A program made the translations under genes and the position numbers. DNA of 32,550 nt from Bacillota bacterium. Lineage in GTDB: Bacteria; Bacillota; Limnochordia; Darwinibacteriales; Darwinibacteriaceae. Shown here in pieces: positions 2,602 to 30,646 of this stretch. The notes beneath the pieces were generated by a model, which saw only the letters and a list, made by a program, of their open reading frames with translations, ran no database searches and was not told where the DNA came from. Location: contig JAAYOM010000103.1 in assembly GCA_012520315.1 (NCBI GenBank), positions 1 through 32,550 on the forward strand, in the 5' to 3' direction. Positions within the stretch are counted from its first letter, which is position 1; the number at the start of each line of letters is the position of its first letter.

Positions 2602-3642
2602 TTAATGTGCTTTTACTTCTGTCCAAATTCGGTCATAAAGACTGAGGGTCTGGCCAAGATTGACAAAAATCTCCGCACCTGCCAGATCCTCTTCCTCTGG
2701 ATAGATCGTGCGATCTTCCCTGATCTCTTCAGGCAACATCTCCCTGGCAGCCTCGTTCGGAATTGCATAGCCGGTGTACTCGGCATTGCGCAGGGCAATC
2801 TCAGGGTCATTCATAAAGTTTATAAACCGCATAGCCCCATCCTTGTTCTTGGCATCCTTGGGAACTGCCATAACATCAAACCAGAGATTGGTGCCTTCTT
2901 TGGGAATAGCAAAGGCCAAATCAGGGTTCTCCATCCTGGCATTGGTGGCCTCTCCGGACCAGACCACTGCCAAGGCTGCCTCTCCGGCAATCATCTTGTC
3001 CTGGCCCTCATCCACAACATAGGCTAATACTAAGGGCTTTTGCTCCTTTAAAAGCTCACCCGCCTCGGCCAGCTCATCAGGATCCAGGGTGTTGATACTG
3101 TAGCCAAGCTTTAAAAGGGCAACTGCAATCGAATCGCGCTGGCTGTCCAGCATTAAGATCTCCTTGCTGTACTTGGGATCCCAAAGAATATCCCAACTGT
3201 CCACCATATCGTCCACAAGGGCGGTATTGTATAGAATGCCTACTGTACCCCATTTATAAGGAAGGGAGTATTTGTTCTCCGGATCGTACTCTAGCCCCAT
3301 GAAGCGATCGGCCACATGTTTCGCGTTTGGGATCTTCACCAGATCAAGCTCGGCCAGCATGTCTTCTTCAATCATCCGGGTGAGCATGTAATCTGAGGGG
3401 AAAATCACATCATAACTGCTGCCGCCGCTCTTAAGTTTTACGTACATGTCTTCGTTAGTGGCATAGGTATCGTAGACAACACGCATGTTTGTTTCCTTCT
3501 CAAAGTCGGCGATAATGCTTTCATCTATATAATCTCCCCAGTTGTAAACATAGACAGTGGGCCGCTCCCGGCAGCCGCTTAAACCCAGACTCACCAGTAC
3601 CAAGAGAACCAGAATCAACATCGTTTTGCTACGCTTAAGCAA
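2602..3642 (-). CDS. potD: Spermidine/putrescine-binding lipoprotein PotD, copy 1 (operon-distal)
   Basis: Extracytoplasmic solute-binding protein of a polyamine ABC importer. The chosen start is TTG at 3642, preceded by AAGGAG with an 8-base gap. This gives a 346-residue product with a classic lipoprotein signal: MLKRSKT, a hydrophobic core, then lipobox LSGC. An upstream ATG at 3687 adds 15 residues but has a poorly spaced site. Conserved PotD features are YVYNWGDYIDE at the start of the mature domain, PSDYM, and the W-x-D of NLWFDVMAVP, which binds amines in characterised PotD proteins. It is the last gene of the operon, 63 bases after the second potD, and close to it in sequence: 52 of the first 62 mature positions match, and both proteins end DRIWTEVKAH. 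The pair may differ in amine preference. Confidence 0.92.
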   Translation of the reverse strand: MLKRSKTMLILVLLVLVSLGLSGCRERPTVYVYNWGDYIDESIIADFEKETNMRVVYDTYATNEDMYVKLKSGGSSYDVIFPSDYMLTRMIEEDMLAELDLVKIPNAKHVADRFMGLEYDPENKYSLPYKWGTVGILYNTALVDDMVDSWDILWDPKYSKEILMLDSQRDSIAVALLKLGYSINTLDPDELAEAGELLKEQKPLVLAYVVDEGQDKMIAGEAALAVVWSGEATNARMENPDLAFAIPKEGTNLWFDVMAVPKDAKNKDGAMRFINFMNDPEIALRNAEYTGYAIPNEAAREMLPEEIREDRTIYPEEEDLAGAEIFVNLGQTLSLYDRIWTEVKAH

Positions 3643-3705
3643 GTCGATCACTCCTTCCCTGAACTCTCCTTCTCGAAGTGTCAGCATACTCCTTCCAAAG
3701 TGCCC

Positions 3706-4749
3706 CTAATGGGCCTTAACTTCTGTCCAAATCCGGTCGTAGTCTTTGAGGGTGTCCCCTAGGTGTACGAAGAACTCTGCATTTTCAAGCACTGCCTGAC
3801 CTGGATAGGCCTGGGGATCATTGCGAATCTCATCAGGCAGCATCTCACGGGCAGCAAGATTGGGTGTGGCATAGCCAATATACTCGGCGTTGCGCAGGGC
3901 AATTTCCGGACGGTTCAAAAAGTCCATAAACTGTAGGGCCCCTTCCAGATTTTGAGCCCCCTTAGGCACAGCCATCACATCAAACCACACATTCGTGCCT
4001 TCTTTTGGGATGGCGTAGGCCAAGTCTTCATTCTCTGAAATGGCGTACATCGCTTCACCAGACCAGGTCAGGGCCAGCGCAGCCTCGCCAGAGACCATCT
4101 TGTCTTTCCCTTCATCCACAACATAGGCCAGTACCAAAGGCTTCTGCTCCTTAAGCAGTTGACCGGCTTCGGCCAGCTCCTGCTTATCCAAGGTGTTGAT
4201 GGAGTAACCCAGCCTAATTAGGGCAACTGCCAGAGAATCCCGCTGGCTGTCCAGCATGAGAATTTCCTTGGCATACCTGGAATCCCAGAGTGCATCCCAG
4301 CTGTCGATAGGTTGATTTACCAATGTGGTGTTGTAGAGAATACCGATGGTTCCCCACATATAGGGCAGGGAATACTCATTTTTGGGATCATACACCGTTC
4401 CCATCAAACTTGCATCGATATGCCTGTGATTGGGAATTTTACCCAGGTCAATCTTTTCCAACATATTCTCGTTCAGCATCCTGGTTAACATATAATCCGA
4501 GGGAAAAATCACATCATAGGTGCTGCCTCCGCTTTTCAGCTTGACATATAGGTCTTCATTAGTAGAGAAGGTGTCATAGACCACCCGCATGTTGAATTCC
4601 TTCTCGAACTCTTCCAAAATGTCCTCATCAATATAGTCGCCCCAGTTGTAGACATACAGTGTGGGTTTATCCTGCTTGCACCCGGTCAAAAGTACACTAA
4701 ACACCACCAAAGCCAGTACGCAAAGCATCCATCTGCCTTTTTTGGCCAT
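3706..4749 (-). CDS. potD: Spermidine/putrescine-binding lipoprotein PotD, copy 2
   Basis: A 347-residue solute-binding lipoprotein. The preferred start is ATG 4749 (MAKKGRWML), with GGAAGGA nine bases upstream. It gives a signal peptide ending in lipobox LLTGC. An ATG at 4758 is possible, and the frame is open to 4800. The mature protein begins with the PotD pattern LYVYNWGDYIDE and keeps PSDYM, MLDSQRDS and the W-x-D in NVWFDVMAVP. The start lies inside the 3' end of potC, so the two genes overlap by 53 bases and are probably translationally coupled. The next gene is a second potD; the arrangement suggests tandem duplication followed by divergence, because substitutions are spread along the whole length. 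Confidence 0.92.
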   Translation of the reverse strand: MAKKGRWMLCVLALVVFSVLLTGCKQDKPTLYVYNWGDYIDEDILEEFEKEFNMRVVYDTFSTNEDLYVKLKSGGSTYDVIFPSDYMLTRMLNENMLEKIDLGKIPNHRHIDASLMGTVYDPKNEYSLPYMWGTIGILYNTTLVNQPIDSWDALWDSRYAKEILMLDSQRDSLAVALIRLGYSINTLDKQELAEAGQLLKEQKPLVLAYVVDEGKDKMVSGEAALALTWSGEAMYAISENEDLAYAIPKEGTNVWFDVMAVPKGAQNLEGALQFMDFLNRPEIALRNAEYIGYATPNLAAREMLPDEIRNDPQAYPGQAVLENAEFFVHLGDTLKDYDRIWTEVKAH

Positions 4750-5536
4750 TTTTCCCATTCCTTCCTTTTCTTTGTTCCCGGGCTTGCCGGATATTGACAA
4801 TAATCAGCAACAGAAGAACAAAGGTAAACATAATCGTCGACAGGGCATTGATCTTCGGATTGATTCCCCTTCTGGCCATCGAATAAATCGTGATGGAAAG
4901 TGTGCTTACTCCAGAACCAGTTGTGAAGAAGCTGATCACAAAATCGTCAATGGACAGGGTAAAGGCAAGGAGTAAGCCTGTAATAATCCCCGGCATAATC
5001 TCTGGAATAATCACCTTCCACAGTGCCCCCGCCGGAGTGCAGCCCAGATCAAGGGCAGCTTCGTAAAGATGCTTATTGAGCTGGCGCAGCTTAGGCAGGA
5101 CCGACAAAATCACATAAGGAATGTTAAAAGTAATGTGGGACAGCAATAAAGTCAGATAACCCAGCCTGACTTTGGTAAAGACAAAGAGAATCATCAGCGA
5201 AATGGCAGTTACGATCTCAGGGTTTAAAACCGGAAGATAGGTCACATTCATAATCAGCTTTTTCTGAATGCCCCGGGAGTTGTGAATCCCAATCGCTGCC
5301 AAAGTGCCAATAATGGTCGCAATTACAGCCGAAGTCACGCCGATAAACAGGGTGGAGTACAAGGAACTCATAATGGTTCGATCCTGAAACAGCTCCACAT
5401 ACCAGCGGAGGGTAAAGCCTCCCCACATCCCCCGGGAACGGGAGTCATTGAAGGAGTACACCATCAAAACCGCAATCGGCATATACAGGAAGGCAAAGAC
5501 AAGGTAGATATAGCTGCGTTTCAGAAACCTTACCAT
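4697..5536 (-). CDS. potC: Polyamine ABC transporter permease PotC
   Basis: A 279-residue inner-membrane permease with six predicted helices. The cytoplasmic EAA loop reads EAALDLGCTPAGALW, followed by KVIIPEIMPG, and docks onto PotA. The N-terminus ([20 protein letters not shown]) and the SFNDSR motif are typical of PotC. ATG 5536 overlaps the potB stop by 7 bases. The C-terminus carries a basic tail of about 25 residues beyond the last helix (REQRKGRNGKNGQKRQ and onward) that reads into the following potD. This makes it somewhat longer than usual for PotC. With PotB it forms the membrane channel of the importer. Confidence 0.93.
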   Translation of the reverse strand: MVRFLKRSYIYLVFAFLYMPIAVLMVYSFNDSRSRGMWGGFTLRWYVELFQDRTIMSSLYSTLFIGVTSAVIATIIGTLAAIGIHNSRGIQKKLIMNVTYLPVLNPEIVTAISLMILFVFTKVRLGYLTLLLSHITFNIPYVILSVLPKLRQLNKHLYEAALDLGCTPAGALWKVIIPEIMPGIITGLLLAFTLSIDDFVISFFTTGSGVSTLSITIYSMARRGINPKINALSTIMFTFVLLLLIIVNIRQAREQRKGRNGKNGQKRQMDALRTGFGGV

Positions 5537-15365: not shown

Positions 15366-15526
15366 TAACCGGGCGCCTGGAAAAAGAAATTGGTAGGTTC
15401 AGCTTAGCCTCCGGAGAAGTAGTCAGCTGCCTTTCATCCACTTAAGTCAGGCGAAATGAAAATGCAACATCAAAGTGTCCTCTGGTTATACTAAACCGTA
15501 ACCGTAATTTGGAAAGGGTGGACACT

Positions 15527-15988
15527 TTGTTCGTTCAACTGCTGGTGTATCCAGTCTTAATCTTAGTTATAGCTGTCTTTCTCTTGGCAACAGTGCCACG
15601 GGCCAAGCTGCGCAGCCTGCTTCCCTACGGACTGGTGCTCGGCGGATTGGTCGATGTTCTCTGGAATATGCTCTTTGACGATTTGCTCAATGTGTTTCGC
15701 TACACCAATCTAGGCATTTTCAATGCCAGCGGACAGCTTTTCTTAGCGCCCCTGGCCTGGTCCCTCATCATCGTCTTCTACCTCTATTTCTGGCCCCAAG
15801 ACGGCAGCAAGCTGCCTTACTTTTATGTCCTTTCCTGGGCCCTTCTGGCCACCGGCTTTAGCCAGGTAGTCTCTTTAGCTGGCCTTTTTGAATACAAGAC
15901 CTGGTACTATCCCCTGCCCATGCTGATCCTCTTTATAATCCGCTTTGCCCTGATCGCCTGGATTGCCAAACCGTGGACAAATTCTTGA
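15527..15988 (+). CDS. Small integral membrane protein of unknown function
   Basis: I do not recognise this family. The preferred start is TTG 15527, eight bases after GGAAAGGG; in-frame GTG 15518 and TTG 15509 are alternatives but overlap the ribosome binding site. The 153-residue product is almost all membrane: helices near residues 3-24, 31-50, 70-90, 97-118 and 125-147, with short loops. A conserved-looking loop reads VDVLWNMLFDDLLNVFRYTNLG between helices 2 and 3. It has no signal-peptide cleavage site, His/Cys clusters or transporter motif. It resembles in size and layout small Bacillota membrane proteins such as the CBO0543 family, but I could not confirm that. It is followed by a membrane serine hydrolase 75 bases downstream. 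Confidence 0.75.
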   Translation: MFVQLLVYPVLILVIAVFLLATVPRAKLRSLLPYGLVLGGLVDVLWNMLFDDLLNVFRYTNLGIFNASGQLFLAPLAWSLIIVFYLYFWPQDGSKLPYFYVLSWALLATGFSQVVSLAGLFEYKTWYYPLPMLILFIIRFALIAWIAKPWTNS

Positions 15989-23522: not shown

Positions 23523-23726
23523 AGCTCAACTCCTTTCCTGCATCAAGACTTTTCGCCTTTTTAGGATATCCTCAGCTACGCCTTTTATACTGTTCCTCCG
23601 AACAGCTGCGCTATTTGACTTTCCACTTAAAGTAAAATAAACTGATCGCACACGGGAACGCCTAGAAAAAATGAGTGGCGGCGAAGAGTGTAATACATGA
23701 ACCTGCATGGGATGGGGGGGAATTTT

Positions 23727-25382
23727 ATGAATAGAAAAGCAAAATCTTTTTACTGCTGGATTTTTGTGATAACGCTGCTTCTGGGGGGATTTGTGACGTC
23801 AGCGCAGGTGCTCGCTTCAGAGCGGCCCACCGTGGCCTTGGTTTTGGGTGGAGGGTCTGCCAGAGGTTTTAGCCACATCGGATTAATTAAGGCCCTGGAA
23901 GAACATGGCATACCGGTGGATATGATTGTCGGAACCAGTATGGGCAGTATCGTGGCCGGGCTTTACGCCGGCGGCTACTCCGTAGATAATATGACCGACC
24001 TGATTACAGAACTTGAGTTTGGCGCCCTCGTTGATATTGCCGTGCCCCTGAGCGGCGGCATTGTTGACACCACAGGCATTGAGCATTACCTGGACATACT
24101 GTTTGAGGGCAAGACTTTTGCCGAGATGCCCATCCCCTTCCGGGCTGTAGTGGTCAATCTTGGAACCGGAAAAGAACTGGCTCTTTCCGAAGGCAAGGTG
24201 AGCAAGGGCATCCAGGCCAGCATCTCCATACCGGGCATGTTTGCGCCGGTTCAAATTGACGATCAGTTCTATGTGGACGGAGGACTGAAAAACCAGGTGC
24301 CTGCTAATGTAGCGGCAGATTTGGGCGCTGATGTAATTATTGCCGTATCGCTGGAAAAGGACTATGATGATCCGGATTATCGCAGGATCACCGATAACCT
24401 GCGCATGTCAATTACGGCTATGATTGAAGGCTATACTGAGATTAACACCGCCATGGCAGATGTTTTAATCGTCCCCGATGTAGGCTTAGATTCGGCCTTC
24501 GACTACCAGAGGGGTGCCTACTTTATCGAACAGGGTTATAAGGCGGGACTGAAGTACATGGATCAGATCAAGCATGTGATTCTTGACAAAGATCCAAGCT
24601 TCCAATTTACACCTTATAAACAGGCGGGCTACTCCAGCGAGGAGCTGCGGGCGATTGCCCAAACGGCTGAGCGTTCGGTGGCCAACTTACCCAAGAAGTT
24701 TACCCTAAAACCAGAGGTTCAGTTCGACAGTGATTATAACTTCCCCAAGATTGGGGCGAAATTCACCCACGGCCCACTGAACTGGTTTGGCATTGGCTAT
24801 CGCTACGGCTTTGATTCTGATGACGGAGGGCATGAACTTTTTGTCGACTGGGGCAGGGAGAAACTCGGCTCGGTAGAAATCTATCTGAGAAAAAGCGCCA
24901 ACCGCAAGCTGCCTACCTTTGGCGGTTCCATCCAGGGCAAGATCAACCGGCTGCTGCTGGAAGCTACATATGTGTCCCAGGGCGTTAAGGCCTGGCAGGT
25001 GTCTGCTTCCAATACCAGTCTCTTAGAGACACCCCATGGCGTAGGAGGCCTGTCACTTAGGGTAACGGGCCTGCGGCCTGAAGTTTCGGACACACCCATT
25101 GAAGACACCTTGCTTGTAGCAATTGCCCCTCAGCTGCAGGTGTTTCCCTGGGGCGAAAAGCAGTTTCCTGTAGGCATTTCCAATAACAGGCCTTATTTTC
25201 TCGGGGGGCTGACTATAGAATCGCCAGTAACTGAATTGGATATTAGGCCAAAGTTTAGGGTTGGCGTGGGAACTGAAATGAACCTCTTCGGCCTTTATCC
25301 CAGCGATGTTTCCCTCGGAGTAGAAATCGATTCGGCAGCCACTGCCACCTTGAAATTTGGTATCAAGGGCCTCAGGTTCTAA
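23727..25382 (+). CDS. Exported patatin-like phospholipase with C-terminal beta-rich (putative outer-membrane barrel) domain
   Basis: A 551-residue protein. ATG 23727 (MNRKAKSF) lies after a GGGGGG-rich site; the frame is open to 23697. The signal peptide ends near residue 30 (QVLA-SE). The patatin domain (33-310) has the oxyanion loop GGGSARG (41-47), nucleophile Ser71 in GTSMGS and the catalytic Asp184 in DGG, so the Ser-Asp dyad is intact. A helical linker (PYKQAGYSSEELRAIAQTAE) follows. The last 210 or so residues alternate polar and hydrophobic positions in about 12-14 strands and end LKFGIKGLRF, with the C-terminal Phe typical of outer-membrane barrels. The layout resembles PlpD-type (type Vd) patatin autotransporters but with a shorter barrel and no clear POTRA domain. 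It shares a terminator with the convergent barrel/RND operon. Confidence 0.85.
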   Translation: MNRKAKSFYCWIFVITLLLGGFVTSAQVLASERPTVALVLGGGSARGFSHIGLIKALEEHGIPVDMIVGTSMGSIVAGLYAGGYSVDNMTDLITELEFGALVDIAVPLSGGIVDTTGIEHYLDILFEGKTFAEMPIPFRAVVVNLGTGKELALSEGKVSKGIQASISIPGMFAPVQIDDQFYVDGGLKNQVPANVAADLGADVIIAVSLEKDYDDPDYRRITDNLRMSITAMIEGYTEINTAMADVLIVPDVGLDSAFDYQRGAYFIEQGYKAGLKYMDQIKHVILDKDPSFQFTPYKQAGYSSEELRAIAQTAERSVANLPKKFTLKPEVQFDSDYNFPKIGAKFTHGPLNWFGIGYRYGFDSDDGGHELFVDWGREKLGSVEIYLRKSANRKLPTFGGSIQGKINRLLLEATYVSQGVKAWQVSASNTSLLETPHGVGGLSLRVTGLRPEVSDTPIEDTLLVAIAPQLQVFPWGEKQFPVGISNNRPYFLGGLTIESPVTELDIRPKFRVGVGTEMNLFGLYPSDVSLGVEIDSAATATLKFGIKGLRF

Positions 25383-25394
25383 GACTAATTAGTA

Positions 25395-25430
25395 AAGCTC
25401 CCCCCCAGTTTTGGGCGGGAGCTTTTGTGT
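25395..25430. terminator. Terminator shared by convergent patatin and RND/barrel operons
   Basis: AAGCTCCC (25395-25402) pairs with GGGAGCTT (25417-25424) with further C/G pairs inside. On the plus strand it is followed by TTTTGTGTGT; on the minus strand by TTTACTAATTAG. It lies between two convergent gene ends and probably works in both directions. Confidence 0.78.
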
Positions 25431-25457: not shown

Positions 25458-26750
25458 CTAGAACTGATAGGTTACAGCCAGCTGGACCCGTGCCCCGTAG
25501 GCTGAGATGCCTTCATCTCCATAGGGTCTAAGCAAGCTAAGCTGCACCTGAACTGAGTTGGGAAAGCGATATGTGTAGGCCGGCCTAATAATGCCGCCTT
25601 CCTCCTTAAATCCGTGCAGAATCAAGACTTCTGCGGAACTGCTCGGGCTAAAATCATAACCCAGACGCCCATAGAGATAGTGGGCGCCCTCGAACTCGCC
25701 GGGCTCTAGAGTTACTAAATCGGGCATAACATAGGGCTGCAAGAGTGACCCCTGGCCGCGGTAGATATACTGGATCTGTGCAAGCAGCCCCTGACCGAGG
25801 GGGAATGTATAATCTCCGCCTATGACCGCCTGCAAATAAGGCCTGTTGATGGCTAGAGGGACTCTGGCCATTTCTAAGGGATTAGGCTCCTTAGGCTCTG
25901 GAAACTTGGCAGGACCGCCATAGGTCACTTCGCCCCACACACCGACAGGTCCAAGGGTGCCGGCAGCTGCCAGCCCCGCAAAGGTTTGCCTGCGGTAGAT
26001 GCCCTCGAAACTCGGTACAGGTCCAAGACCCGGCTGGACAGTTAATACCATTTCCATGCCGGGCAGCGGTTCAAAACCAGAATAAATACTGGCTTGCACA
26101 TCGAAACCTGCAACCTGAGTCTCGGCCCGCACAGCCCACTCAGAGTTGGTGCCCAGACCCCGGGGTTTTTTCGTGTCCTCTATAGCCTTGAGAAGCAGGG
26201 CAGCCTGGGGATTGGCCTCAGTCATCATCTGCTTCATCTGATCATCAATTGCCTGGGGATTGAAGAAGGGAACTACCACACCGGTCACAGACCAGGCAGA
26301 CCCAAAATATGTTGCTTGGGCGGCCCAAACAGGACTTCCACTAATCGCGCCGTTCAATAAAGAATCGGTACCCATTCGGGCAAAGTAATTGGTGGGGTTA
26401 AAGCCGTCGGCAGTGCCCCAACTGATCGCCTGGCGGCCGACCTGGTAATCGAAATCGCCTTTGTAGCCGCTGAGCCAGAGCTGATCTAGACCCAGATCAC
26501 CTTTTCTCGCCTTCCAATCCCACCAGCCCTGGGTGGAAAAATGAAGTTTGGCGCCAAAGTCCAGACTGTCTTCCAACACAAAGCGAAAACCGGTCCGCGT
26601 TGAATCATGCACCAACTTTTTCTCTTCCCGATCCCACTGCGCGCCAATGCCGGCATTCAGTTCACCTGTGGGAACAAAAGCCCAGACAGGCGCAGACATC
26701 AGCAGTATGCTCAAGACAACTGCCAAAACCTGAATCCTTCGTTTCATCAT
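25458..26750 (-). CDS. Outer-membrane beta-barrel protein, DUF1302-like
   Basis: A 430-residue exported protein. ATG 26750 lies six bases after AGGAAGG; a second ATG follows directly. Residues 1-24 form a Sec signal peptide (MMKRRIQVLAVVLSILL, cleaved after PVWA). The rest is beta-rich with alternating hydrophobic residues and ends VQLAVTYQF, with the terminal Phe recognised by BAM-type machinery. The segment YQVGRQAISWGTADGFNPTN matches the signature of DUF1302/alginate-export-like porins (GRQ-x-x-SWG-x-x-DGxNP). In Proteobacteria DUF1302 genes occur with RND/MMPL exporters and LolA-like proteins in envelope lipid-transport clusters. Here it follows just such a fused gene by 28 bases in the same operon, so it is the likely outer-membrane end of that pathway. 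Confidence 0.85.
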   Translation of the reverse strand: MMKRRIQVLAVVLSILLMSAPVWAFVPTGELNAGIGAQWDREEKKLVHDSTRTGFRFVLEDSLDFGAKLHFSTQGWWDWKARKGDLGLDQLWLSGYKGDFDYQVGRQAISWGTADGFNPTNYFARMGTDSLLNGAISGSPVWAAQATYFGSAWSVTGVVVPFFNPQAIDDQMKQMMTEANPQAALLLKAIEDTKKPRGLGTNSEWAVRAETQVAGFDVQASIYSGFEPLPGMEMVLTVQPGLGPVPSFEGIYRRQTFAGLAAAGTLGPVGVWGEVTYGGPAKFPEPKEPNPLEMARVPLAINRPYLQAVIGGDYTFPLGQGLLAQIQYIYRGQGSLLQPYVMPDLVTLEPGEFEGAHYLYGRLGYDFSPSSSAEVLILHGFKEEGGIIRPAYTYRFPNSVQVQLSLLRPYGDEGISAYGARVQLAVTYQF

Positions 26751-26778
26751 GCCTCACCTTCCTGTAATATTGTCCCTG

Positions 26779-27552
26779 TTAACGGCGCAAATTGCGAACT
26801 GTGAAAACGTCATCGCTGACTTCTGCTTGGCTAAGCTCTGTTATTTCCAAAATAGTCCTGGTCCCCTGCACTTCGTCGGCCATCACGAGATGATGGGGAA
26901 TCAGCTCCCCAGATACCAGCTGAAACTGATCCATAGCAAGGGTTTTAGCTAGAACCTCCCCGCCGCTATAGAACTGCAGCTTAACCGGGACCATTTTCTC
27001 GATCCATACCCACATGACAATCTTTTCATAGAGTGCATCTGGTTCTGCGGCAGTCAGTTCCAAAACATAGCAGTCCAAACCCTGAACTTGCTCATCGGCG
27101 AGGCGCTTGGCAGCATAGTCCTTGTCATAATTGAAGCCTCCGCCGATTTCCTCATAGGTGAAATCTGTACCCATAAAAGAATCTCCGGTCATATGGGAGG
27201 CAATGCGCCGCTCACGGCCAAGGGCCGGCATGTAGAGCCACATTTGGCTTTCTTGCCCCTCTTCATTAATTGACAAAAACTTGGTGCCCCGCACATCAGC
27301 AGGGGCTAAGTACTCTAAGAACTGTTTATCCCCGGCATCATCAGTTTTGAGATAAACCCGCACAGAATAGGTGCGCTGTGCTCCCCTGGCGTTTTCCGTA
27401 ATCAGGGTGAGCTCTGCCGTACCGGAGCCGGTTAGGATGCTGTCGAAACCCAAATCGTCAATAATCTGTTGACCTGTGAGTTCTTGAGCACTTACCGCAG
27501 CAGATGCCGCTGTCAAAAGTAGTGCAAGCATGATCACCAATGTACGTTTCAT
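26779..27552 (-). CDS. LolA-like outer-membrane lipoprotein-sorting protein (internal start within the fused frame)
   Basis: ATG 27552 is preceded by AGGAGG (27565-27560) with a seven-base gap, the best ribosome binding site in the operon. It starts a 257-residue product with a full Sec signal peptide (MKRTLVIMLALLL, cleavage after VSAQ or nearby). The mature part has the markers of the LolA-like family annotated 'outer membrane lipoprotein-sorting protein': FLEYLAPADVRGTKFL, QMWLYMPALGRERRIAS and DSFMGTDFTYEEI. Known LolA-type folds carry lipids or lipoproteins across the periplasm in a hydrophobic half-barrel. A signal peptide in the middle of a fusion is odd unless the domain is made separately, which argues for internal initiation as the main or additional route. 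Confidence 0.75.
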   Translation of the reverse strand: MKRTLVIMLALLLTAASAAVSAQELTGQQIIDDLGFDSILTGSGTAELTLITENARGAQRTYSVRVYLKTDDAGDKQFLEYLAPADVRGTKFLSINEEGQESQMWLYMPALGRERRIASHMTGDSFMGTDFTYEEIGGGFNYDKDYAAKRLADEQVQGLDCYVLELTAAEPDALYEKIVMWVWIEKMVPVKLQFYSGGEVLAKTLAMDQFQLVSGELIPHHLVMADEVQGTRTILEITELSQAEVSDDVFTVRNLRR

Positions 27553-29832
27553 TTCTTTACCTCCTTTTAGTTTTCGCTTCGCGAGAAAGTTGATCACCAT
27601 GGGAATTACAAGCAAGGCCGCCAGCGAGCTGACGATCATGGTGGTAGAAATTAAAAAACCAAAGACGGCAATGGCCCTGAAGTGTGAAAAGGCCAGAACC
27701 AAAAAGCCGGCGATAAGCGCCAGAGCGTTGAAGAAAATGCCTCGGCCCGCTGTAGAGCCCGCCCTGCGCAAAGCGGTTTCCCGGTCATACCCGTCCGACA
27801 GCTCCAGACGATAGCGGCTAATGTAGTGAACCGCATAATCAACCCCGATACCAACAGCAATACTGGCAATGACACTGGTTACAGCATCTAAGGGTAAGCT
27901 CGCAAAGCCCATGAGACCAAAATTAATCAGCACAGTAAAGAGCAAGGGCACTAGGCTCAGCAAGCCAAAGGGCAGAGATTTCATCATGAACGCTACAATC
28001 AGTCCTACCGTCAGCGAGGAACTGACTAAACTGGAAATCTGGGTCTGCACGTAGCGGTTCATGAGGCGCATCATCACTTTCGGAGTCCCGGTCAAATGAA
28101 CGCTGATGTCCTCTCTGCCGCCGTAACGCTCTGCCAAATAGTTTTCCACTTCACCGATGACAAAACCCATGGCGCTCGCGTCTAACGTCTTCATCCGCGC
28201 TGTAACCAAGGCCTGACTGTAATCATAGGTTACAAGGGTTTCCAGGCCGGTTCCCCCTTGCATGGAAAAGAGCAGGAGCTGCTGGGCGATTCCTTCCCGG
28301 GTTTCAGGAACTGCATAGTAGGCGGGATCTCCGTCCCAAAGTGCCTGATTGAGCTCACGCACCACATCTGCCATAGAAGTTGCATTGCTGATGGTCTCCC
28401 AGGAACTGAGGTAGTCTTGGATATGAATCAGCTCATTCACTAGCTCTGGATCTTTCATGCCGTCGGGTGCTCCGGTATCCACTACCACAGAAATTTGCAT
28501 GCTTCCTCCGAAAACATCCTCAATTACCTGTGTTCCTCGCTTAACTGGACTGGAATCACTAAAGTAGTTGACGATGTTGCTTTCCAGAATCACCAAAGTT
28601 GCGCCGTAGGCAAAGAGAGTTGTCAGTAAGATCACAGCGATCAAAAGCCTGCGGGGCTGATCAATTGCCCAATTGCTTAAAGTATGCAAAAAGCGTGTCA
28701 AAAGCCCTTCTTTCTCCGTCTTGCCGGTGCCCCGCTTTACTTTAGGCTCCCTAACTAAAATCAGAAAAGCAGGAACCAGGCTGATTGAGAGAACCATAGC
28801 CAAGAACACACCGATCGCGGTCAGCACCCCAAAATCCCGCATGGGCTGCACAAAGGCTGTAACCAAAGAGGCAAAGCCGGCCGATGTGGTCAGGGCTGCC
28901 ATAGCCACCGGCGATGTAATTACCCGAAAGGTTTCAATTAAGGCCTCTCGCTTCGGCAGTCCGCTTGCCAAGGCCTCCTGGTACTTGTTCAGAATATGGA
29001 TGCTGGAAGCGATACCCACTGTCACCAGGATAACCGGCATGACCATCGTAATCAGAGAGATGGGTATCCCCTGGGAAATCATGATGGCCACAGTCCAGAT
29101 CACGCTCGCCCCCACAGTAACTAAAGGAATAAGTACGCCGAGGGCGGAACGGAAAATGAGATATAAGACAACGCCAATCAGGATTATTACAAAGGGAACT
29201 AAGATCAGAACATCTTGTTTCATGGCCTGCTCAGTGTAGTACATAACGTAGGAGTCGCCTACCACATGAATTTCTTCCGGTCCCACGAAGCCAGCAACAA
29301 TGTCTTCGATTTGGGCCAGCACTGGATTTACATTAGGCAGATCTTCCAGCTCAAGAAGTAAGGCTGCTCCCCTGCCGTCAGCTGTGATCAGCACCCCTGC
29401 ATAGGGACTTTGCAAAATGTCTGTCTTAAACTGTGTAATCTCTTCATTGGTTTGGGGGAGTTTCTCCGCCATAACGCCGATTTCGATGCCAAAGAAACTG
29501 CTCTCCACTCTTTGAGCATTAAGTGGACTCTGCACATCAAGCACTCCAGGCAAGGCCAAAAGTTCCTGTTCCAAGTCGGCTATCTTGCGCAAAGTGGCAG
29601 GTGTAAAAATGTCATCACTTTCTATCGCGATAAAAAAGAGTTCCTGCGAACCAAACTCCTCCGCCACAGCCTGCAATTCCATAAGCACCTGATCGTCTTC
29701 TGGGATCATGGCGTTGAGACTGGCGTCAAATTCTATGCGGGGGAAAAAAGATAGGGCTCCCAGGGTGATTGCAAGCGCCACTCCAATGACGACCCAGGGC
29801 CTGTTCAAAACCATTTCAATCCATCGTCTCAA
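26779..29832 (-). CDS. MMPL/RND-family exporter fused in frame to a LolA-like outer-membrane lipoprotein-sorting protein
   Basis: One uninterrupted frame of 1017 codons. TTG 29832 overlaps the tetR stop (TTGA) with AGAGGTG upstream. Residues 1-760 are an inner-membrane RND exporter of the MMPL/HpnN type. It has a helix at 12-30, a periplasmic loop to about 205, five helices to 365 with GIASSIHILNKYQE, a second helix near 390, a second periplasmic loop, and five more helices with GIGVDYAVHYISRYR. The frame then runs through LAKRKLKGGKE into MKRTLVIMLALLLTAASAAV, a second signal peptide, and a 235-residue LolA-like domain. An ideal ribosome binding site sits inside the joint, so two separate products may also be made. 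The system probably lifts a lipid or lipophilic compound out of the inner membrane and hands it to the carrier. Confidence 0.85.
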   Translation of the reverse strand: MRRWIEMVLNRPWVVIGVALAITLGALSFFPRIEFDASLNAMIPEDDQVLMELQAVAEEFGSQELFFIAIESDDIFTPATLRKIADLEQELLALPGVLDVQSPLNAQRVESSFFGIEIGVMAEKLPQTNEEITQFKTDILQSPYAGVLITADGRGAALLLELEDLPNVNPVLAQIEDIVAGFVGPEEIHVVGDSYVMYYTEQAMKQDVLILVPFVIILIGVVLYLIFRSALGVLIPLVTVGASVIWTVAIMISQGIPISLITMVMPVILVTVGIASSIHILNKYQEALASGLPKREALIETFRVITSPVAMAALTTSAGFASLVTAFVQPMRDFGVLTAIGVFLAMVLSISLVPAFLILVREPKVKRGTGKTEKEGLLTRFLHTLSNWAIDQPRRLLIAVILLTTLFAYGATLVILESNIVNYFSDSSPVKRGTQVIEDVFGGSMQISVVVDTGAPDGMKDPELVNELIHIQDYLSSWETISNATSMADVVRELNQALWDGDPAYYAVPETREGIAQQLLLFSMQGGTGLETLVTYDYSQALVTARMKTLDASAMGFVIGEVENYLAERYGGREDISVHLTGTPKVMMRLMNRYVQTQISSLVSSSLTVGLIVAFMMKSLPFGLLSLVPLLFTVLINFGLMGFASLPLDAVTSVIASIAVGIGVDYAVHYISRYRLELSDGYDRETALRRAGSTAGRGIFFNALALIAGFLVLAFSHFRAIAVFGFLISTTMIVSSLAALLVIPMVINFLAKRKLKGGKEMKRTLVIMLALLLTAASAAVSAQELTGQQIIDDLGFDSILTGSGTAELTLITENARGAQRTYSVRVYLKTDDAGDKQFLEYLAPADVRGTKFLSINEEGQESQMWLYMPALGRERRIASHMTGDSFMGTDFTYEEIGGGFNYDKDYAAKRLADEQVQGLDCYVLELTAAEPDALYEKIVMWVWIEKMVPVKLQFYSGGEVLAKTLAMDQFQLVSGELIPHHLVMADEVQGTRTILEITELSQAEVSDDVFTVRNLRR

Positions 29833-30419
29833 GTCAATTTCACCTCTCCTACCTTGAGAATCACATTTAGTGCATCTAATGATTCAGTGATAATCTTGTT
29901 GCCCGGATTCAAGAGTGACTGCACCGCAATGCCGAAGATGCCGCTAAAAAACAAGCTGGCCAGAGTCTCTGGGCTGTAGGTGGTGCCCAATTCGCCCATG
30001 ATCTCTTTGGTAAACACCTCGGCAGTGATTTGATCCAACACTCCGGCAAAAATCTCCCTAACCTGTCCCCGGAGGGGATCTGACCAAAGTGCCAAACCCA
30101 CCAAATCATAGAGAACACGGAATAAATCTGGATCGTTTTCCAAAACTTCCTGGTAGAGTCGGATAAAACACTCCCCCTTTTGGCGCGGGGACATCTCTGG
30201 TTTGAGGTAGGATTGCATATACGCGAAATACTTGTTCGCCACCCGACGGGCAACTGCCAAAAGCAGCCCTTGTTTGTTCTTGAAGTGATAGCTGATCTGG
30301 CTCACCGCCACCCCAGCCTCTTGGGCGATCTGCCGCAGGGAAGTTCTAGTATAGCCCTCCCTAGCAATCACCGCGTAGGCCGCATCAAGGATTTTCTCCT
30401 GCTGACTTACTTCCAGCAC
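29829..30419 (-). CDS. TetR-family transcriptional regulator
   Basis: A 196-residue repressor. GTG 30419 (VLEVSQQEKILDAAYAVIA) is preferred, with AAAGGGGGG five to six bases upstream; the frame runs to 30533 through the promoter region, which is not coding. The HTH is at about residues 19-48 (TRTSLRQIAQEAGVAVSQIS, then YHFKNKQGLL), and the C-terminal ligand domain follows with FRVLYDLVGLALW. It overlaps the RND gene by four bases, is first in the operon, and has a palindromic operator directly upstream. Autoregulation and control of the exporter by a lipophilic ligand, as in AcrR or FadR, are likely. Confidence 0.92.
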   Translation of the reverse strand: MLEVSQQEKILDAAYAVIAREGYTRTSLRQIAQEAGVAVSQISYHFKNKQGLLLAVARRVANKYFAYMQSYLKPEMSPRQKGECFIRLYQEVLENDPDLFRVLYDLVGLALWSDPLRGQVREIFAGVLDQITAEVFTKEIMGELGTTYSPETLASLFFSGIFGIAVQSLLNPGNKIITESLDALNVILKVGEVKLT

Positions 30420-30444
30420 CCTTTCCCCCCCTTTCTTCGATTCT

Positions 30445-30466
30445 TTCGATCGGACGACCGTTCGAA
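30445..30466. promoter_or_regulatory. Palindromic operator for the TetR regulator
   Basis: TTCGATCGG (30445-30453), a four-base spacer ACGA, then CCGTTCGAA (30458-30466): a 9-bp inverted repeat with one mismatch. Size and spacing fit TetR dimers. It lies between the -10 box and the tetR start, at about +5 to +25, where a bound repressor would block transcription. Confidence 0.72.
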
Positions 30467-30476
30467 TGCTACCTCT

Positions 30477-30505
30477 ATTATACCATTCCCTGCAATATAT
30501 GCCAC
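30477..30505 (-). promoter_or_regulatory. Sigma-A promoter of the tetR-RND-barrel operon
   Basis: On the minus strand TGGTATAAT (30485-30477) is a perfect extended -10 box. GTGGCA (30505-30500), 17 bases upstream, matches TTGACA at four positions. The start site would fall near 30470, directly before the palindromic operator. Confidence 0.7.
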
Positions 30506-30646
30506 ACTTCCTCGAAAAAGGAATAATGGACATCTAAAACGAAGTGTACAGCCATTCCGGCCCTGCCTTTCGGTCAACTCGCTCAACTTAGCCGAAATTC
30601 GTAAAATTGATCGAGGGACAGGCCCGCGCAAAAGGAGGAACTTAGC

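Follow-up and report, generated by a model that had tools for sequence, protein, structure and literature searches.

The window, by which we mean the whole stretch of 32,550 nucleotides analysed here, carries on its minus strand one transcription unit that extends from position 30505 to about 25394 and comprises a promoter, an operator, tetR, an MMPL/RND pump, a LolA-like carrier, an outer-membrane barrel and a closing hairpin (Table 1). This operon is real. A preliminary description of the same sequence had named the promoter, a TetR operator, tetR and the MMPL exporter; tetR and the exporter were confirmed, and a promoter-like site and a conserved palindrome correspond to the other two. The TATAAT element is retained at the promoter position in the relatives compared from the family of the window genome, a family of Limnochordia hereafter called f1. 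A longer tetR reading frame (ATG at 30533) was rejected, as its start would precede the promoter. The tetR stop codon overlaps the pump start by 4 nt (TTGA), and 28 bases separate the carrier stop from the start of the barrel gene, which is preceded by a Shine-Dalgarno sequence (SD). The terminator that had also been claimed is borne out insofar as a strong hairpin lies downstream, but this hairpin has no clear T-run and received no score in the terminator scan.

Beyond the hairpin, the convergent patatin-like phospholipase gene is a probable partner of the operon outside its transcript; upstream of the operon is a LigT gene in divergent orientation. The window proteins scanned include, besides patatin and LigT, a GH18 enzyme, a CPBP protease, PotD-like proteins, a ZIP transporter, a flagellin, a RelA/SpoT-like protein, an aminotransferase and an M20 peptidase; contrary to the earlier placement of the operon next to spore genes, no spore gene was recognised beside it among them. 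GH18 enzymes are sometimes spore-associated, and no feature of the one in the window marks it as such. Elsewhere in the window we observed a tandem pair of mutually similar PotD-like solute-binding proteins beside ABC permease and ATPase genes (2602-4800) and a probable membrane protein of 159 aa (15509-15988) that matches nothing in Pfam and nothing convincingly in NCBIfam.

Table 1. Features of the operon and of its convergent neighbour, in window coordinates
Feature	Position	Strand	Evidence
Promoter	30477..30505	-	-35 GTGGCA, 17 nt, extended -10 TATAAT; promoter-like, consensus scan
Predicted TetR operator TTCGAACGGTCGTCCGATCGAA, between -10 and tetR ribosome site	30445..30466	-	near-perfect 22-bp palindrome
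tetR, TetR-family repressor, GTG start	29829..30419	-	PF00440, E 1.8e-15
Single ORF, 1017 aa (MMPL pump, linker, signal peptide, LolA-like carrier)	26779..29832	-	no in-frame stop
MMPL/RND inner-membrane transporter part, 760 aa	27553..29832	-	PF03176, E 2e-42, 145.7 bits, above cut-off 20.5
Internal Shine-Dalgarno AAGGAGGT, within the pump-carrier ORF; LolA ATG 6 nt downstream	27559..27566	-	sequence
LolA-like carrier, 257 aa with signal peptide	26779..27552	-	PF17131, E 2.7e-52, 177.5 bits, above cut-off 30
DUF1302-type outer-membrane barrel, 430 aa, signal peptide, C-terminal Phe	25458..26750	-	AlphaFold pLDDT 86, pTM 0.80
Hairpin, probable terminator, between convergent genes	25394..25425	-	-31.4 kcal/mol, z -4.5
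Patatin-like phospholipase, convergent, C-terminal extension (probable barrel)	23697..25382	+	PF01734, E 8e-32

The operator core is conserved, directly after the -10 element, in all f1 operons examined. A genome-wide site search returned a single site per f1 genome, located at this operon, and no wider TetR regulon was found in these genomes; the operator of the g6 genomes is a variant that comes from a comparison of operon upstream regions rather than from that search. Given one site per genome, the repressor is probably dedicated to this operon.

Pump, carrier and barrel

The best NCBIfam match of the pump is HAE3 (TIGR00921), at 294.7 bits below the cut-off of 351.9, whereas the match to HpnN (TIGR03480), at 122.8 bits, falls far under its cut-off of 751.85. 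By fold, the pump model is closest to MmpL4, MmpL5 and MmpL3 and also resembles NPC1 proteins and HpnN, and the solved structure nearest by sequence is that of HpnN (5khn). The second half of the pump contains an invariant DY pair (D665, Y666), and by inspection the corresponding position in the first half appears to be SS. The claim of a LolA-like carrier with a signal peptide holds: the protein belongs to PF17131, its relatives in the PDB are solved PF17131 proteins (9tp6, 3bk5, 4z48 and 3buu), and inspection predicts cleavage after residue 22, between VSA and QELTG.

For the third protein, structure modelling yields a barrel, as the earlier assignment required. The AlphaFold model has many long strands, and Foldseek places it near OmpM1, porins and AlgE, with sequence identity of about 10%. 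A signal peptide, a modelled barrel fold and a C-terminal aromatic residue (F430, invariant across 24 sequences) together mark it as an outer-membrane beta-barrel. The label "DUF1302-like" applies by way of its homologues: the window barrel itself has no match in Pfam, including DUF1302 (PF06980), and none by sequence in a profile search of the PDB, but barrels at the same cassette position do match PF06980 (L019, 2e-12; L024, 6.5e-16; L064, 1e-9; L065, 7e-9).

The joined pump-carrier frame

Exporter and carrier had been described as two genes. Both parts are present, but they form one ORF of 1017 codons with no stop between them. At the junction, AAAACTAAAAGGAGGTAAAGAAATG, the SD and the in-frame ATG of the carrier both lie within the open frame of the pump, and a purine-rich SD is retained in most relatives, fused and separate alike. 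The stopless junction also occurs in 12 other f1 genomes (13 with the window genome), a count that includes G014, where the frame was followed only to the contig end. Sequencing error as the source of the joined frame was rejected, given its presence in 13 genomes with differing linkers. Where relatives do have a stop (9 sequences), it is usually a TAA or TAG that arises when the bases right behind the SD are read in another frame.

On the pump tree, the joined state is found in the deepest f1 branch, with about five changes between joined and separate; because the two states alternate, the fusion is, judging from the tree, not essential. The 18-codon linker of genus g1 nevertheless shows what may be a modest sign of selection on its openness, as 62 inferred changes have introduced no stops and no indels, against about four stops expected if the new bases were random (probability of none about 0.02, ignoring the compositional constraint of the SD). 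In genus g4, the joined frame was seen in G010 alone (L033, compared with L040-L042), in which four bases are missing just before the SD relative to its sisters; this absence would bring the pump frame into the carrier frame. MMPL-LolA fusions suggested by open-frame lengths in f9, f12, f15 and f16 were rejected, as the DNA of examples contains stops and separate ORFs.

In all 13 fused sequences, a K/R-K/R start leads into a hydrophobic core that is followed by a -1 Ala cleavage motif, the cleavage sites being judged by inspection. The AlphaFold model of the joined protein consists of the pump fold, a helix at 760-779 and the LolA fold; hinges modelled with low confidence flank the helix (756-761 and 779-783), and the second hinge falls at the predicted cleavage site. 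The continuous frame passes through the internal signal peptide, as in a polyprotein processed by signal peptidase, for which the bacterial cytochrome b/c1 polyprotein is a precedent. The C-terminus of the pump part would be expected on the cytoplasmic side, and the hydrophobic segment that follows would then serve as an internal signal peptide, carrying the LolA domain across the membrane for release by signal peptidase I after an A/V-x-A motif. The strong internal ribosome site may supply extra free carrier. Pump and carrier are thus probably made as one chain that is cleaved into two during export, and a fusion precursor split by signal peptidase, complemented by internal initiation, appears to be the likeliest reading.

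A stable, uncleaved fusion, in which the LolA domain stays tethered by a thirteenth membrane helix, would also be consistent with the continuous frame in 13 genomes and with the helix at 760-779, and an MMPL-LolA protein is reported for Thalassolituus (PMC6304351). We consider such a fusion unlikely, since the fused forms show the canonical signal-peptide layout with its -1 Ala motif, the SD and start codon are kept, and close relatives make the carrier separately.

Distribution of the cassette and envelope of the host

The gene order recurs in about 20 f1 genomes. A strong barrel match was obtained in 21 of the 23 genomes of this family, the drafts G016 and G021 being without one, and in many other Limnochordia families, f3 excepted. 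The same order, TetR-MMPL-LolA-barrel, was found in a deltaproteobacterium (L019) and in Psychrilyobacter (L024). The suggested check of gene-order conservation therefore favours the proposed unit, whose members do co-occur within f1 and in other phyla. For the same reason the cassette is, from these sequences, not special to the lineage, and the view that the lineage has a system of its own is not upheld.

In many f1 genomes a convergent patatin gene occupies the same place as in the window. In f9 (L065 7464-9079), the patatin gene sits within the operon, flanked by tetR and the pump, and on a Bacteroidetes contig (L025 5960-6925) it lies between carrier and barrel. These three arrangements tie a lipid-acting enzyme to the cassette.

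Some f1 genomes contain a second, diverged MMPL-LolA-barrel cassette (L064 1429-5636, G006:C163, G008:C14 and G009:C92), with a pump identity of about 31-33% and with separate ORFs in L064, the one read; it was not seen in the genome of the window. An f1-like operon on a short contig binned in f3 (G029:C123, L044 / L006, 3705 bases) is probably misbinned and possibly transferred. The record DUPA01000070.1 (L009), titled Natronincola sp., corresponds to the Limnochordia genome G015, and its label seems wrong.

The window genome (G000) encodes Omp85 (G000:C100), the flagellar L- and P-ring proteins FlgH and FlgI, and SpoIVA (G000:C60), along with a cluster of LptF/G, LptC, LptA-like and LptD-like genes (L083 11667-16109, G000:C100:18500-38000). 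Omp85, FlgH and the Lpt-type genes mark the lineage as diderm, as had been deduced, and SpoIVA indicates sporulation; neither of the two outcomes named beforehand as refuting the proposal came about. Such a lineage is not new, as Limnochordia are already described as diderm spore-formers in PMC11456536 (citing Taib 2020 and Watanabe 2016). Lpt-type genes were found beside Omp85, so the idea that the organism is devoid of every known lipid bridge was rejected. LpxC was detected in none of the 23 f1 genomes, G000 included; it was not found in f1-f6, and among 41 genomes it occurred only in f7-f9. The f1 family thus appears, from these searches, to be without lipid A. We note that Lpt-type genes coexist with undetected LpxC in G000.

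TamB (PF04357) was found in 0/23 f1 genomes, although divergent AsmA-like proteins can escape this model. In G025 the gene order is NAGPA, S55 peptidase, TamB, Omp85 (L085 5916-12902); at the same place in G000 (L083 6065-9675) TamB is missing and 89 bases are left between its neighbours. MlaD was detected in a single f1 genome (1/23), in agreement with its reported presence in "a few Limnochordia" (PMC10665443). Across the class, barrel and MlaD tend toward mutual exclusion (Fisher p 0.007, uncorrected for kinship), and ten genomes have none of barrel, MlaD and TamB. A second PF17131 protein lies behind an FtsX-like ABC permease in the window genome (G000:C106, L062, 636-2740) and also in G010:C69, G018:C4 and G040:C1:84280; in relatives a weak barrel match follows the PF17131 protein, like an ABC-driven version of the cassette.

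Proposed function of the relay

By analogy, the cassette would work like the AmeABCD, PP_0765/PP_0766 and TOL_3187 systems, with a pump, a LolA-fold carrier and a barrel. AmeABCD of Castellaniella defragrans, which serves terpene efflux (PMC6394551), likewise brings together a DUF1302 barrel, a LolA-superfamily carrier and an HAE3-affiliated RND pump, and the window operon has this same combination of barrel, LolA-type carrier and RND pump. AmeABCD differs in its DUF1329 carrier, its adjoining monoterpene genes, the lack of a reported fusion and its second periplasmic protein, AmeC, for which the operon has no comparable gene. In Pseudomonas putida, PP_0765/PP_0766 with PP_2018/PP_2019 are needed on Tween 20 (PMC10866462); a DUF1302 barrel, a LolA-type carrier and an RND pump are again proposed as one relay, but they come from two loci, with a DUF1329 carrier and the Tween 20 phenotype. 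Thalassolituus oleivorans TOL_3187, implicated together with an adjacent porin on n-C28 (PMC6304351), has by its description a similar layout: an MMPL domain and a LolA-like domain share one polypeptide, and the gene immediately downstream is predicted to encode a porin. This system is gammaproteobacterial and n-C28-induced, and the available account of it describes no TetR, internal start or processing. The hopanoid transporter HpnN, also of HAE3, shares the fold group of the window pump, but does not require cassette partners (PMC6394551). The BstABC sterol transporters combine an MMPL-family pump with periplasmic-side carriers for lipid, but these carriers belong to other families and no barrel is described (PMC10942540). 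This kind of relay occurs in several phyla, and the joined pump-carrier frame is the unusual twist.

Taken together, the locus is probably an operon under its own repressor, encoding a relay through three compartments for a substrate that is hydrophobic and probably a lipid. TetR would occupy its own operator until a ligand displaces it; the simplest candidate for this ligand is the transported compound or a precursor of it. The MMPL pump, judged by its family and fold, would draw on the proton gradient to extract the substrate from the inner membrane or take it up from the periplasm, the LolA-fold protein would shield it during the crossing of the periplasm, and the predicted barrel would take it at the outer membrane. 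The route from inner membrane through periplasm to outer membrane that had been proposed thus remains the best reading of the parts, in view of the modelled barrel, the conserved gene order and the diderm lineage. A lipid is a plausible substrate but not an established one, since terpenes, Tween or alkanes are also handled by related systems.

The strongest competing explanation is inducible efflux or exchange of foreign hydrophobic compounds, such as terpenes, alkanes or detergent-like lipids, rather than envelope building. A dedicated TetR with a single operator is typical of such systems, and monoterpenes (PMC6394551), Tween 20 (PMC10866462) and n-C28 alkane (PMC6304351) are the compounds on which the most similar characterised cassettes act. 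However, the cassette is near-universal and syntenic in f1, a patatin phospholipase adjoins the operon or sits inside it, and no catabolic genes for such compounds were recognised beside the operon in the window. A dedicated repressor is more in keeping with an inducible system than with housekeeping, while near-universal presence and the link to patatin favour an envelope lipid. We therefore hold foreign-compound efflux to be a serious possibility, though not the one we would choose.

Alternatively, f1 may have lost its TamB and MCE bridges, with the relay serving as the chief anterograde supply of lipids to the outer membrane. Because f1 is without detectable LpxC or TamB and has almost no MlaD, the operon is a candidate lipid route, and the strong barrel in most f1 genomes, the missing TamB between S55 peptidase and Omp85 in G000 and the tendency of barrel and MlaD to exclude each other are consistent with a principal role. 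Yet Lpt-type genes are present in G000, divergent AsmA-like proteins may have gone undetected, kinship may account for much of the exclusion, ten genomes manage without barrel, MlaD and TamB, and the operon's own TetR points to regulated use and not to housekeeping. We regard this housekeeping supply role as improbable, and as slightly less probable still the fuller proposal that the f1 relay is the principal lipid route and also employs a pump-carrier polyprotein split by signal peptidase. A genuine Lol pathway for lipoprotein sorting, suggested by the LolA fold of the carrier, is very unlikely, since the carrier falls in PF17131 and not in the true LolA family, an RND pump takes the place of LolCDE as the motor, and the PF17131 protein behind the FtsX-like permease (G000:C106) is a better candidate.

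Bacterial examples in which a membrane transporter and the soluble protein it works with derive from a single precursor are uncommon, and the joined frame, if processed as proposed, would be one. How lipids are delivered to the outer membrane is a long-standing question, and the f1 diderm Bacillota, with TamB, MCE and lipid A undetected and a compact RND-LolA-barrel operon nearly universal, provide a less complicated system for addressing it.
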